Source of the DNA: Vampirovibrio chlorellavorus | GTDB lineage: Bacteria; Cyanobacteriota; Vampirovibrionia; Vampirovibrionales; Vampirovibrionaceae | Direction of reading: 5' to 3' | Assembly (NCBI RefSeq): GCF_003149375.1 | Contig: NZ_QFWH01000008.1 | Coordinates: 1 to 64,000, forward strand | Length of the DNA stretch: 64,000 nucleotides | Part shown: piece after piece, positions 1,030-5,967 of the stretch | How the letters are laid out: the number at the start of each line of letters is the position of its first letter | How positions within the stretch are numbered: position 1 is the first letter of the stretch | Program-made: the position numbers and the translations under genes | The notes under the pieces: generated by a model | Told to the model about the DNA's origin: nothing | What the model saw: the letters and a program-made list of their open reading frames with translations, nothing else | Databases searched by the model: none

Positions 1030-2350
1030 TGTTGAGACAGAGCTTCAGCCGATTGAACGTCTTCCGCATTCAGTAGCGGTAGAGCAGGGCATTCTCTGTG
1101 GGCTATTGCAATATCCCGCTTTGTTTCCCCAAGTGGTTGGCCTGCTTCAGCCAGAACATTTTTACTCAAACGTTCATCAGGCAATCTTTCAGGCTATGCT
1201 GGATTGCTTTGAGCAGCAAGTTCCCCTTGAGCCCATCGCTTTAACGCAGGCTCTGGAGGTTTCCGGCGGCTTGGCCATGGCCGGAGGGTCAGCCTATCTC
1301 TATGATTTGTTGCTTGGCAGCAATCCCGATGTTCAGGTTCTGAACGACGCCAGCCTGAAGCACTGGACAAAGCTCTTGATTGATCTGGCCCGGCGGAGGG
1401 AAGTGATTCTGGCCTGTCAGGATATCGCAGACTCAGCCGCCCAACGGGATCAGTCCACCTATCTGGAAGAGGCGGAAAATTTGCTTTACCTAATATCGGA
1501 AACCTTCCCCACCGACACGATGGAGGCATTCGATCCCATTGAGGAGGCCATTCAGCAGCTTGAAGCGGAGACCAATAGCCCCAATGGGGTTACCGGCTTA
1601 TCCACGGGGTTCCCCACACTGGATAATTCCACCCACGGATTTCAACCGTGGCAGTTGATCACCGTGTCCGCCCGGCCCGGTGGGGGTAAGTCCGCCTTTG
1701 CTTTGAACGTGGCTTGCCATGTGGTGCTTCAGGAGCGCAAGCCGGTGCTTTATATCAGCCTGGAAATGACCGCCAGCGAGTTAATGAAGCGGGCCATCAA
1801 GGCCAAGGCAGGCAATCCTAAAGACATGGACGCCTTGAAGATAGCGGCCATGGCCTGGAAGCCCTTCCAAAAGGATCTGATTATTGAGGATGCCGCCGGT
1901 CAAACCCTGGCGGCCATCCAGTCTAAAATCCTGAAAGCCAAAAAGCGGCGGCCTGATTTGGCCTTGGTAGTGGTGGATCATATTGGCTTAATTGCCTCAG
2001 AGCCGAATGGCAAGCAACAGAACCGGGCCTATGAGATTCAGGCCATCACCAGCCGTCTAAAGACCCTGGCCAAAACTATTCAGGTTCCCATTATCCAACT
2101 GGCCCAGATGAACCGGGCGGTGGATGCCCGGCAGGACAAAAAGCCGATGCTCTCAGATCTTCGGGACTCGGGTGGCATTGAAATGGACAGCGATATTGTG
2201 CTTTTCACCAATATTGAGCGCATGGAAGACCGGAAGCCCACTGGTGTGGCTTCTTTGACTATCGCCAAGCAGCGGGATGGCGTCCAGATGGAGATTCCCC
2301 TTCTGTTCGTGCCTCATTTGACAAGGTTTAGGGAAAAACTTATGCCATAA
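1022..2350 (+). CDS. DnaB-like replicative helicase of a mobile element
   Basis: 442 aa from the ATG at 1022; GGAGG at 1008-1012 gives a 9-nt spacing and rules out the upstream TTG at 971. Residues ~15-110 match the DnaB N-terminal helical domain. The RecA-like C-terminal domain has Walker A ARPGGGKS (217-224), Walker B LVVVDH with D319, and the QLAQMNR / DLRDSGGIEMDSD motifs (359-392). It unwinds the fork as a hexamer. Its start overlaps the end of the replication-initiator gene, implying coupled translation. Its place beside that gene and an integrase suggests the element's helicase rather than the host copy. Confidence 0.85.
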   Translation: MHDVETELQPIERLPHSVAVEQGILCGLLQYPALFPQVVGLLQPEHFYSNVHQAIFQAMLDCFEQQVPLEPIALTQALEVSGGLAMAGGSAYLYDLLLGSNPDVQVLNDASLKHWTKLLIDLARRREVILACQDIADSAAQRDQSTYLEEAENLLYLISETFPTDTMEAFDPIEEAIQQLEAETNSPNGVTGLSTGFPTLDNSTHGFQPWQLITVSARPGGGKSAFALNVACHVVLQERKPVLYISLEMTASELMKRAIKAKAGNPKDMDALKIAAMAWKPFQKDLIIEDAAGQTLAAIQSKILKAKKRRPDLALVVVDHIGLIASEPNGKQQNRAYEIQAITSRLKTLAKTIQVPIIQLAQMNRAVDARQDKKPMLSDLRDSGGIEMDSDIVLFTNIERMEDRKPTGVASLTIAKQRDGVQMEIPLLFVPHLTRFREKLMP

Positions 2351-2455
2351 ATAAGAAACAGATAGGTTAATTTAAGTTAATTAGGTTTGGGCGCAATCCA
2401 TGTTGTAGGCCGGTTTTCATGGGGTTAAATAGCTCCAATAAAAGGAATTAACCCT

Positions 2456-3607
2456 TTGCCAAACTCATTTGTGTTCATAGTAGATATCGAAACATATAAG
2501 ACTCACATCAAATATGGGTTTTGCGCCACCGGCAAATCAAAAAAACCAATTGAAAACTATAAAACCTTCATGGATGAAAAAATTCAATCGGAATATCACG
2601 ATATTCTTGCAGACCTCTTAAACGTCGAAATTGGCGATCAAATATTTTTCTATATAACAAAAGAGGGTTTTAAGGATGTCTACGAAGTGACTGAAAAGCT
2701 CTTTTTTGACGCCACTGAAGTGGAAAATCTTCCGGCCAGTAGACCTTTTCGAATTCTGATCCGTCCAAAGTACCAATTTGAAAAAGCTGTACCTGAAGAT
2801 AGTTTATTCCTCAGTGAAAAAAGACGCTCCAAGTTTTGGCTACTTTATTTCAATAAAGCTCGTGGTAAAGCCAGGGGATGCACCCCTCTTGATCCTGATG
2901 CAAGCCAAGAGCTATTGGAGTTGCTCATAAAGTACAATGCTTGCGAGTACAGTAGCGCTACCCAAGTTCCTGAACGCTATCCAGGCATCAAGAGAGAAAT
3001 TAAGGAACTTAAGATTAAAACAAGGTTTGAGCAACCATTTTCTAGGGAAGATTCCTTGTTGGCAATGATATTGCGAGCTTATCAGACTAAAAGTGCCACA
3101 TTTTCCAGCATTTTCGGAGGCTTTGACCGCTTGGAGTGGATGGGAAGTAAAATTCCTTATGACATTACAGGAAAAAATATCGATCTTTTGCTATATCACC
3201 GAGCAAAGACACCGGACGAACAGTTTAGTCCACGTTATAAATATTCAGTTGTTGAGCTTAAAAGAGAAACTGCCGACCTTGCCGCACTTTATCAAGTACT
3301 GAATTATAGTCAAGCAGTGGGAAACAACTTGGCGGAAGGAGATTTCCATTTAGTTCAGCCAGTTCTTATTGCCCATGATTTCACTGATGATGTTCTTAAA
3401 GCGGTGGAGCTTGGCTTCTCAAACCATAAAAAACCAATTCTTGTTTCATATCGATATGTCCAAGATGAAGGACTAACACTAGAAATTATTAATAAACATG
3501 ATAATGACAGCCCAAGCCCAACAAAACCCATTAAGCGCAATAAGCGGGCTTCTCAATCCGAAACGCCTTATATTGAACCTCTGGTTGCAAAAGGAAAAAT
3601 CGGCTAA
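2456..3607 (+). CDS. EVE/PUA-like domain fused to PD-(D/E)XK nuclease (candidate type IV restriction-like protein)
   Basis: 383 aa, TTG start at 2456 preceded by AAAGGAA; an alternative start is not excluded. Residues ~1-115 contain a PUA/EVE-like pattern (GDQIFFYITKEG, then VYEVTEKLFFDATEV and a strand FRILIRPKYQFEKAVPE). The C-terminal half has a PD-(D/E)XK nuclease signature: IDLLLYH with D243, VVELKRE with E267 and K269, then Q280xxxY284. EVE domains bind modified bases and are often fused to nucleases in modification-dependent restriction. The gene is visibly more AT-rich than its neighbours and lies between replication genes and integrase, a usual cargo position. The EVE assignment is by eye and less sure than the nuclease. 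Confidence 0.55.
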   Translation: MPNSFVFIVDIETYKTHIKYGFCATGKSKKPIENYKTFMDEKIQSEYHDILADLLNVEIGDQIFFYITKEGFKDVYEVTEKLFFDATEVENLPASRPFRILIRPKYQFEKAVPEDSLFLSEKRRSKFWLLYFNKARGKARGCTPLDPDASQELLELLIKYNACEYSSATQVPERYPGIKREIKELKIKTRFEQPFSREDSLLAMILRAYQTKSATFSSIFGGFDRLEWMGSKIPYDITGKNIDLLLYHRAKTPDEQFSPRYKYSVVELKRETADLAALYQVLNYSQAVGNNLAEGDFHLVQPVLIAHDFTDDVLKAVELGFSNHKKPILVSYRYVQDEGLTLEIINKHDNDSPSPTKPIKRNKRASQSETPYIEPLVAKGKIG

Positions 3608-4893
3608 TCCCACCCCTTCATCGCCTCAATGACCTCCTGCTCTTTAGTCTGGCAATAGCTCATAGTCGTCTTGATGTCAGAATGCCCGCAAGCCCTCTGA
3701 AGCATTTGCAGCGGCCTGCCCTTGTTGGCATTGATGGTCACGAACGCCCGGCGAAGGGCGTGAGGGGAAACGGTGACACCTGCTAGCAATCCCAGTCTTT
3801 GTAATCTCTGGTACAGCCCGCTTCTGTCCATTGGCTTACCCTTGCGGTTCAAGAAGAGGGGCTGATGTTCCCCGCTTGGCACTTTGGCCTTATATTCTTT
3901 CAGGACTTCCAACAAGCGGGAGGAGATGCCCACCCTCCGGGTTTTATTTCCTTTTCCCAGCCTGACAATCAGCCAGCCGCCTTCCAAGTCAATATCACCC
4001 CAACGAAGGGAGCAGGATTCAGAAGCTCTCAAGCCAGTGTTTAACAATAAAAGCACTATGAGTCGCTCTTGTGTGGTTTCACAAACCTTCAAGAGGGCTG
4101 GAATGTCAGCATTATTGACAGCCGTTCGCTTGGGGGGAAGGTGCCTCTGTGGCTTCTGATGTTTCACTTCTTCTATAAAGCTGGGGGCTAGGGCATTTTC
4201 TCGAATCAGGAATTTAGCAAAAGAAATCAAAGCCTCATAAAGCCTTGCCTTCTTTGCGTACTGCTTGGGAGGAATCGCCATTAAGGCCATTTGCAGCGTT
4301 TTAGGAGAAACTTCACCGTACTTTTCAAGGAACTCATCTACTATGCGTTTGTAATTTTTTGAGGTGTTTGGGCTAAAGGGCTTACCAGTCATCAAGCCTG
4401 TTTCCATGGCCTTCACCCAGGCAAAGATAAAGAGGGCATGAGGCTTTCTATCCTGCCGAAGCGCTTCCTTTTCCTGCACCTTTCGAAGTTCTTTGTCTGC
4501 TTTCAGTTGATAAGAAAGCATTTCCAGAATTTTGGAGCTGATAAGCCAAGTGGTCTTCTTCCCGTAGGGTTTCGGGGTGGCTGGCAGCTTGCCCGTTTCA
4601 CACCATCGGGCGATTGTCATTGGATTCTTACCAAGTTTTGAGGCCGCTTCCTTGACTGACAGAAAAAGTCCCACATTTTGCACTTTTGCATGTTGGACTT
4701 TTGTGGAAGTTGGGGGCGTTTTGCCTATCGTTTTATGAGATGCCTCATATTTTCCATTACCAGCCTCACAAACAAAAACAGCCCCAGAATCAAGTTCTGA
4801 AGCCGGTTTCAAGTTTTTAAAAGTGGCGCGCTCGGAGAGATTCGAACTCCCGACCTCATGGTTCGTAAACATGAATCTTCTTGATTTTCTCAA
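3604..4893 (-). CDS. int: Tyrosine integrase with fused excisionase-like HTH
   Basis: Up to 429 aa. Residues ~74-125 form a MerR/excisionase-type HTH (LSVKEAASKLGKNPMTIARWCETGKLP). Residues ~150-250 are a core-binding domain and 255-429 the catalytic domain, with R289 (TGLRASE), K314 region, H378xxR381, H404 and nucleophile Y413. The most upstream residues (about 1-27) translate the tRNA-Arg 3' half, so the real start is probably downstream: TTG near 4812 or GTG at 4683 or 4674; none has a good RBS. The gene is convergent with the nuclease gene, overlapping it by 4 nt. It catalyses site-specific integration into the tRNA-Arg gene at the adjacent att repeat. Confidence 0.85.
   Translation of the reverse strand: MRKSRRFMFTNHEVGSSNLSERATFKNLKPASELDSGAVFVCEAGNGKYEASHKTIGKTPPTSTKVQHAKVQNVGLFLSVKEAASKLGKNPMTIARWCETGKLPATPKPYGKKTTWLISSKILEMLSYQLKADKELRKVQEKEALRQDRKPHALFIFAWVKAMETGLMTGKPFSPNTSKNYKRIVDEFLEKYGEVSPKTLQMALMAIPPKQYAKKARLYEALISFAKFLIRENALAPSFIEEVKHQKPQRHLPPKRTAVNNADIPALLKVCETTQERLIVLLLLNTGLRASESCSLRWGDIDLEGGWLIVRLGKGNKTRRVGISSRLLEVLKEYKAKVPSGEHQPLFLNRKGKPMDRSGLYQRLQRLGLLAGVTVSPHALRRAFVTINANKGRPLQMLQRACGHSDIKTTMSYCQTKEQEVIEAMKGWD
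4816..4867 (-). repeat. att repeat: displaced copy of tRNA-Arg(ACG) 3' half
   Basis: 52 bp identical to 5883-5934. It runs from the anticodon loop through the T arm, acceptor stem and CCA into 8 nt of downstream flank. Identity stops inside the anticodon loop, a typical crossover point for tyrosine integrases. The copy sits at the 5' end of the integrase gene, as expected for an att site. Confidence 0.85.
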
Positions 4894-4978
4894 TATACGA
4901 GGAATATACAGTCTGAATCTTCGAGAACATGAAGAATCATAGCTTGAAAAACCTCTAGGTAAAAGCCTCTTCTGTACG

Positions 4979-5011
4979 GGTTTTACAGCGGTTTTACAAC
5001 GGTTTTACAAC
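4979..5011. repeat. Three tandem 11-bp repeats near the att site
   Basis: Three consecutive copies of GGTTTTACARC at 4979-4989, 4990-5000 and 5001-5011, the last two identical. They overlap the 3' end of the toxin gene and lie ~110 bp from the att repeat. Short direct repeats near att often are arm-type integrase or excisionase sites; this role is inferred. Confidence 0.6.
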
Positions 5012-5371
5012 GGAGCTCAGCCACCAGAGCAACTTGTCAAAACGGAATTGCCCTGTTTCAAACCAGTTCATAAAATCCTGATAAGTCTTGGTATTATCAC
5101 AATCAATATATTGACCGTTCATCCGCAAGAAGGTATCAGTCATAAAGAGAGCCACTCGCTTATTACCGTCAATGAAAGGGTGGTTGTTGGCCAAACTTTC
5201 CATTAAAGCGGCAGCCTCTTCAATTAATCCCTCATAGTAACCAAGCTGGGGTCTGAACAAAGCGGCTTCCAAGGCACCCATGTCCCGAACGCCCGGATGT
5301 CCACCAAACTCGGCAATCAGAAGCCGATGAATCGCAAGCGCCTCTTGCAGTGTTGGGAAGTTATGACTCAT
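4994..5371 (-). CDS. doc: Doc/Fic-family toxin of a type II toxin-antitoxin pair
   Basis: 125 aa. The Fic-fold motif HPFIDGNKR at residues 64-72 has the Doc-type ending NKR, with H64, D68, K71 and R72 in place. The N-terminal LQEALAIHRLLIAEFGGHPGVRDMGALEAAL and the length match death-on-curing proteins. Doc of phage P1 inactivates EF-Tu by phosphorylation; whether this protein does so is inference. Its ATG overlaps the antitoxin stop by 4 nt (ATGA). The C-terminal codons run through the 11-bp tandem repeats. The pair lies between the two tRNA-Arg att repeats. Confidence 0.88.
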   Translation of the reverse strand: MSHNFPTLQEALAIHRLLIAEFGGHPGVRDMGALEAALFRPQLGYYEGLIEEAAALMESLANNHPFIDGNKRVALFMTDTFLRMNGQYIDCDNTKTYQDFMNWFETGQFRFDKLLWWLSSVVKPL

Positions 5372-5595
5372 TGGGCAAGTAGCCGACCCAGTTCACTGTT
5401 TTTCCTCAAGCTGCTCTGAAAATGAGCCATCACCTGATTGCGGGGCTTATCCGATTTCTTGGTTTCTAGATAAAGCCGCATGGCATCTTCCATTACAGCT
5501 TGAAATTGTCGACCTTCCTGTTCAGCCAAAGCCTTTAGCTCAGCCAATAAAACAGGATCTGCCTGGGTGGAAAATTTTTGTCTTTGTGTAGCCAT
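5368..5595 (-). CDS. Ribbon-helix-helix-like antitoxin partner of Doc
   Basis: 75 aa. The N-terminal part (QKFSTQADPVLLAELKALAEQEGRQFQAVMEDAMRLYLE) fits a ribbon-helix-helix DNA-binding fold, and the basic C-terminal tail (NQVMAHFQSSLRKNSELGRLLAQ) could be the toxin-neutralising segment. It is not obviously Phd-like. It is upstream of and overlaps the toxin gene by 4 nt. The likely promoter (5602-5630) ends 6 nt before the ATG, so the mRNA may be leaderless; the pair probably autoregulates there. Confidence 0.75.
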   Translation of the reverse strand: MATQRQKFSTQADPVLLAELKALAEQEGRQFQAVMEDAMRLYLETKKSDKPRNQVMAHFQSSLRKNSELGRLLAQ

Positions 5596-5601
5596 AACTT
5601 C

Positions 5602-5630
5602 AGTCTAGCTGATTTAAAATCGCATTTCAA
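5602..5630 (-). promoter_or_regulatory. Sigma-70-type promoter for the toxin-antitoxin operon
   Basis: On the minus strand TTGAAA (5630-5625), 17 nt, TAGACT (5607-5602). The antitoxin ATG starts 7 nt downstream of the -10, so transcription would begin at or next to the start codon. Confidence 0.6.
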
Positions 5631-5851
5631 GATTCATCTTGATGTTTCAAGCCAATTACATCCACTGCGCTTTTTCAGGGGTTCAAAACGCGCTGATAGC
5701 TGGATTTTTTTGGGAGAGTTCATGGCATAGGCCCATGCACTCAAAAAACAGGCGTTTTTCATATCAACCGCTATTCGCTGAAATTCTTATGGGATGAGTC
5801 TTTAATGGCGCGTCATCTTGAAAAGCATATCTACAACGGGTCAAAATACAA

Positions 5852-5875
5852 AAAACACCCGAAAAGGGGTGTTTT
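5852..5875 (-). terminator. Intrinsic terminator of tRNA-Arg
   Basis: Perfect 9-bp stem (5852-5860 with 5867-5875), 6-nt loop, followed on the minus strand by a T-rich run. It lies just downstream of the tRNA 3' end. Confidence 0.8.
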
Positions 5876-5882
5876 GAGAGGC

Positions 5883-5934
5883 TTTAAAAGTGGCGCGCTC
5901 GGAGAGATTCGAACTCCCGACCTCATGGTTCGTA
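5883..5934 (-). repeat. att repeat within and beside the intact tRNA-Arg gene
   Basis: The second copy of the 52-bp repeat of 4816-4867. It forms the 3' half of the functional tRNA plus 8 nt beyond CCA. The distance between copies is 1067 bp, which defines a potential excisable unit holding only the Doc toxin-antitoxin pair. Confidence 0.85.
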
Positions 5935-5967
5935 GCCATGCACTCTATCCAACTGAGCTACGAGCGC
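5891..5967 (-). tRNA. tRNA-Arg (ACG), CCA encoded
   Basis: 77 nt including encoded CCA. The acceptor stem GCGCTCG pairs with CGAGCGC and the discriminator is G. The D stem is GCTC/GAGT, the anticodon stem CATGG/CCATG with loop CTACGAA (anticodon ACG), and the T arm GGGAG-TTCGAAT-CTCTC. It is an integration target: its 3' half is duplicated at 4816-4867. Confidence 0.95.

Follow-up and report, generated by a model that had tools for sequence, protein, structure and literature searches.

The window, by which we mean the whole 64,000-nucleotide stretch of Vampirovibrio chlorellavorus DNA that was analyzed, begins with genes of a mobile element followed by two copies of a tRNA-derived repeat. One of these genes encodes a likely EVE/PUA-like domain fused to a predicted nuclease domain. 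The features of the locus are:

19–1029, + strand: phage-type replication initiation protein of the element (PHROG 16167, E = 2.4e-46)
971–2350, + strand: DnaB-like helicase of the same element, given as the longest ORF with the true start probably inside (Pfam DnaB_C, 2.5e-64)
2440–2447, + strand: ribosome-binding site AAAAGGAA, ~9 nt 5′ of the TTG start
2456–3607, + strand: EVE-like/PD-(D/E)XK fusion gene, one open ORF of 383 codons (383 aa) with a TTG start
2456–2935, + strand: likely EVE/PUA-like domain, residues ~1–160 (hhalign to the EVE profile, prob 78–90; Pfam EVE, E = 0.067)
3035–3490, + strand: predicted EndoMS/NucS-like PD-(D/E)XK nuclease domain, residues 194–345 (NCBIfam NucS, hhalign, AF2 fragment, Foldseek)
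3047–3049, + strand: E198, helix-1 glutamate, invariant (four-way alignment)
3182–3184, + strand: D243, predicted metal ligand, invariant (four-way alignment)
3254–3262, + strand: E267-L-K269, predicted catalytic (D/E)XK, E and K invariant (four-way alignment)
3293–3307, + strand: Q280xxxY284, QxxxY motif, Q and Y invariant (four-way alignment)
3604–4893, − strand: tyrosine integrase with HTH, true start probably inside (Pfam Phage_integrase, 4.2e-37; HTH_17, 2.6e-7)
4823–4867, + strand: att copy 2, an exact 45-bp repeat of the tRNA-Arg 3′ part and right end of the integrase-bearing element
5890–5934, + strand: att copy 1, inside tRNA-Arg(ACG) (5891–5967, − strand)

The fusion gene has the coordinates and length given in the original prediction, which read it as a modified-base reader joined to a nuclease in a cargo slot between helicase and integrase; both flanking genes are confirmed by their Pfam matches. 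The TTG start is supported both by the ribosome-binding site ~9 nt upstream and by the closest homologue, which begins at the equivalent place. With a G+C content of 39.3% (GC3 34.6%), the gene is more AT-rich than its neighbors, as had been noticed, and the most AT-rich of its element, compared with 49.7% for rep, 53.5% for dnaB, 48.5% for int and 57–58% for host genes. The fusion and integrase genes are convergent, with stop codons that overlap at 3604–3607, and no terminator-like site was found in 2200–3800. The protein stays below the thresholds of all Pfam, PHROG and NCBIfam models. The matches that we do observe are weak: Pfam EVE over residues 56–116, NCBIfam NucS over residues 263–318 (E = 0.0036) and, across the nuclease part, candidate-defence profiles of PADLOC.

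The tRNA-Arg(ACG) region at 4823–5967 is an integration hot spot. In addition to the two copies in the window, a third copy of the 45-bp att sequence lies at ~309414–309463 of host contig C4, 4.5 kb from the contig end. Base 1 of the window is itself a contig end, and part of the element is absent from the window contig (C8). On the simplest reading, the element, with its replication initiator, DnaB, fusion and integrase genes, runs from the C4 end into the window contig across a presumed C4–C8 junction, and it is best explained as a small, integrative, phage-satellite-like element inserted at tRNA-Arg(ACG). Near the C4 end (L010:13764–14775) we also observe a nucleotidyltransferase gene with an adjoining small gene, by eye a HEPN/MNT-like pair; located just inside the third att copy, this pair probably marks the element's other end. 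The interval between the two exact att copies of the window is most simply read as a separate 1.07-kb Doc/RHH toxin–antitoxin cassette (4994–5595). Among the congeners, G002 likewise has a cassette of this kind between its att copies and does not resemble the window to the left of 4816; in G004 the att copies flank a DUF2971 gene.

Three homologues, 23–35% identical to the window protein, were found. With tblastn against the plasmid collection, a full-length homologue was found on a haloarchaeal plasmid, from Halobaculum limi (90% coverage, E = 6e-33). Among 386 genomes searched within the phylum, another was found in G404 (E = 5.8e-9), which belongs to the same bacterial class but is distant. 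The G404 protein, used as the query, in turn identified a homologue on a second haloarchaeal plasmid, from Haladaptatus (NZ_CP120471.1, E = 4e-18). In the four-way alignment, E198, D243, E267, K269, Q280 and Y284 are identical in all four family members. D243, E267-x-K269 and Q280xxxY284 thus lie where the original prediction placed them, and E267 and K269, the pair whose conservation in homologues it had singled out, are kept in all three.

Occurrence of the fusion gene is sporadic. The family protein was found in none of four congeners, and G404 is the one other convincing genome among the 386 sampled in the phylum. Protein, alignment and DNA-pattern scans of the viral_contigs and genome_contigs collections found no relative, and tblastn against phages found nothing. 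Two DNA-pattern matches in viral contigs were attributed to chance, and two further genome matches were set aside, one (G133) being weak and in a frame with stops and the other (G533) belonging to a different large protein. The low G+C content, together with the sporadic occurrence, supports the proposal that the gene was acquired separately as mobile cargo.

The fold of the C-terminal half is assigned, fairly securely, as EndoMS/NucS-type PD-(D/E)XK; each line of evidence is weak singly, yet all agree. The single sequence (P0001) does not rise above background against the NucS profile and just the family profile exceeds it, being collinear with NucS_C-family proteins with the active-site columns in register and an hhalign score of 36.8 (maximum of 26.2 in 100 shuffles). 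Searched against the PDB, the family profile gives five weak matches that include NucS and EndoMS (2vld, 5gke), the others appearing unrelated. Two of the homologues match NucS as well (E = 0.0009 and 0.008), along with weak matches to PADLOC PDC-S02/S11/REase_II. The AF2 model of residues 194–350 alone has a pTM of 0.57, a mean pLDDT of just 55.8 and the element order helix–strand–strand–helix–strand–helix–strand. With this fragment as the query, the top four Foldseek matches in the PDB are all EndoMS/NucS (prob 0.75–0.89, E 0.03–0.09), in agreement with the nuclease fold that the original prediction had proposed to check by structure. The protein therefore has the invariant D, (D/E)-x-K and Q on an alpha/beta core by which PD-(D/E)XK enzymes are recognized, and DNA cleavage is predicted. 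It is not assigned as a NucS equivalog, as it scores 16.4 bits against a curated cut-off of 216 (NCBIfam NF003270).

The fold of the N-terminal domain is likely EVE/PUA-like, as judged by profile comparison. The family profile resembles EVE above controls, though the single-sequence Pfam match (residues 56–116, E = 0.067, 13.6 bits) falls below the cut-off of 23. The four-member profile reaches an hhalign score of 44.8 (prob 78), compared with at most 19.4 in 150 column shuffles and 13.0 for the reversed alignment, and the N-terminal part alone reaches 47.1 (prob 90); the EVE side of the comparison was drawn from proteins of the same phylum, EVE–McrB and EVE–HNH fusions among them. When 90 ORFs of at least 300 aa were ranked blind against EVE, places one to three went to the only three family members among them. 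The match spans from GD-x-IFFY (residues 60–66, the best-matching segment) to about residue 160, so that the domain originally proposed stands, with a boundary beyond the residue 120 first given. The first third of the domain is not reliably alignable to EVE, and the portion of the EVE fold that makes up much of the pocket is not recognizably conserved. The base pocket of VcaM4I, with residues P24, W82 and Y130, lies partly in this first third (PMC7897488), and these three residues could not be mapped onto the fusion protein. Single-sequence AF2 of the full-length protein gives a pLDDT of 33, and a PDB profile search with residues ~1–170 found no PUA protein. On inspection by eye, P0003 and P0004 also call to mind the plant DCD domain, which is EVE-like and whose fusion to PD(D/E)XK nucleases in prokaryotes has been reported (PMC7641849). 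A scan of 386 genomes returned neither the DCD family (PF10539) nor its control, and so carries no weight either way. We infer a role for the N-terminal domain as a putative modified-base reader.

The three relatives differ in their surroundings. In G404 the homologue overlaps a MutH/Sau3AI-family endonuclease gene by 1 base, its start coinciding with the final base of that gene, and is convergent with a Dcm-type (cytosine C5) methyltransferase gene. The Haladaptatus homologue (NZ_CP120471.1, L013:141–12903) lies after the DISARM genes drmA, drmB and drmC; next come a MutH/Sau3AI gene and two C5-methyltransferase genes. The Halobaculum homologue stands alone, with no annotated DNA methyltransferase within ~24 kb. 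A sister Haladaptatus plasmid (NZ_CP119793.1) carries the same MutH/Sau3AI–Dcm island beside BREX-5 and lacks the homologue, which indicates that the MutH/Sau3AI link is loose and suggests that defence modules are exchanged around this island. Sau3AI systems on other plasmids likewise occur without a homologue, and an obligate MutH/Sau3AI–Dcm module was accordingly rejected.

The cytosine methylation potential of the host bears on what the reader might recognize. C5-methyltransferase matches occur at three places in the host genome, on contigs C7, C10 and C11, and at least two of the enzymes appear intact. The C7 gene lies beside a gene that by eye is terminase-like, the C11 match is split over two frames, and on C10 (L098:3757–6133) the methyltransferase gene precedes a 363-aa ORF containing the stretch GIEVKTTKK, with which it possibly forms a host Type II restriction–modification (R–M) pair. 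No MutH/Sau3AI gene was found in the host genome. Provided that these enzymes are active, the host's own DNA would be attacked by a nuclease that responds to 5mC wherever it occurs, so that 5mC in any context is an unlikely target; 5hmC, another hypermodification or a restricted context appears more likely as the trigger. Considered together with the Sau3AI-coupled homologue, the host enzymes point to a target that would be context-specific or carry a different modification such as 5hmC, or to a protein that in some relatives would be part of an ordinary R–M system.

We favor, with a probability of roughly 55%, the reading that the product of the fusion gene is a modification-dependent (Type IV-like) restriction endonuclease that works on its own and travels as cargo of the small integrative phage-satellite-like element. 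The gene's invariant predicted catalytic residues, cargo position, distinct base composition and sporadic occurrence are shown by the analysis, as is, at the level of sequence profiles, its two-domain architecture. In the proposed mechanism, which we infer from sequence, the EVE/PUA-like domain would flip out a modified base of incoming phage DNA and hold it in a pocket, and the EndoMS/NucS-type domain would then cut the DNA by means of D243, E267, K269 and Q280, protecting the host from the phage. A modified-cytosine trigger, if there is one, would have to be of a type or in a context not produced by the host C5-methyltransferases, such as 5hmC or a hypermodified base. The lack of a methyltransferase beside the window gene or its Halobaculum homologue fits the expectation for a Type IV enzyme, and the presence of relatives in defence loci (a Sau3AI/Dcm operon and DISARM drmABC) supports a restriction function. 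Counting against this reading, the location of two of the three homologues near C5-methyltransferases would also fit a modification-sensitive enzyme, and part of the element is missing from the window contig, so a partner gene is possible. The modification-dependent design of the original prediction is thus upheld in its architecture and narrowed in its target, since a plain modified-cytosine target is constrained by the host methyltransferases and the Sau3AI-coupled homologue.

The neighborhoods of the G404 and Haladaptatus homologues, along with the C5-methyltransferases of the window's host, would also suit a Type II-like restriction nuclease whose PUA-like domain reads a specific unmodified sequence while a C5-methyltransferase encoded elsewhere protects the host. 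We consider this unlikely, albeit the likeliest of the rival readings. An adjacent candidate for the cognate methyltransferase is found just near those two homologues and adjoins neither the window gene nor the Halobaculum homologue; the Sau3AI systems and sister-plasmid island that lack a homologue argue against an obligate R–M part; and any new host would be killed by a mobile restriction enzyme that arrives with no methyltransferase of its own. It is improbable that the protein serves the element in repair or replication, as a nuclease that acts with the neighboring DnaB and, like NucS/EndoMS, is specific for mismatches or branches. NCBIfam, hhalign, the PDB profile search and Foldseek do all place its nuclease domain nearest to EndoMS/NucS, and its gene adjoins dnaB, but the score far below the NucS equivalog cut-off, the EVE match of the N-terminal domain, the absence of replication genes around the homologues and a base composition unlike that of dnaB all speak against such a role. 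Less probable still is an RNA-triggered effector or toxin whose N-terminal domain would bind RNA, either modified or structured. Domains of the PUA/ASCH superfamily often bind RNA (PMC7641849), and a nucleotidyltransferase gene from a toxin–antitoxin-like pair lies on contig C4, the probable site of the element's far end; the catalytic domain, however, is of the DNA-cutting EndoMS/NucS type, and the relatives are associated with DNA restriction–modification and DISARM loci.

The Type IV-like reading that we prefer agrees with a described class, as EVE–PD(D/E)XK proteins were identified as putative Type IV restriction endonucleases by Bell, Wolf and Koonin in 2020 (PMC7641849). The window protein shares their domain combination and likewise has a solitary, mobile context, and its EVE domain, similar to many of the defence type, is detectable by profiles only (PMC7641849). 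It differs from the class in lying below all Pfam, PHROG and NCBIfam thresholds and in having a nuclease that is specifically EndoMS/NucS-like. VcaM4I, an EVE–HNH endonuclease that restricts DNA containing 5mC or 5hmC (PMC7897488), offers a model for the action of the reader in that an N-terminal EVE domain precedes a C-terminal nuclease, which is HNH rather than PD-(D/E)XK. The mismatch endonuclease NucS/EndoMS (PDB 2vld, 5gke, 5gkj) has a similar C-terminal nuclease with the D, E-x-K and Q/Y helix motif; its N-terminal domain is different, and the fusion protein lacks a repair context. Sau3AI-type R–M and DISARM genes adjoin distant homologues at two loci, but neither is found beside the window gene.

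From its sequence, we regard the window protein as a real, divergent and unannotated fusion of the EVE–PD(D/E)XK type, a class itself predicted in 2020; some interest is added by its nuclease being of EndoMS type and by one relative being coupled to a Sau3AI-type gene. As a tentative and rather doubtful extension, the family may be a lineage spanning Bacteria and haloarchaea that joined an EndoMS/NucS-type (mismatch-repair) nuclease to an EVE/DCD-like modified-base reader, and that would serve both as a solitary mobile Type IV enzyme and as a third gene coupled to Sau3AI-type R–M operons; in these it would intercept phages that are shielded from the Type II enzyme by their modified cytosines. 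Named predicted active-site residues are now available for a probable defence gene lying outside all curated family models. This one protein family is found both as solitary mobile cargo and beside Sau3AI-type R–M and DISARM genes, and it makes directly testable the question of which modified base such a reader would target in hosts that methylate their own cytosines.
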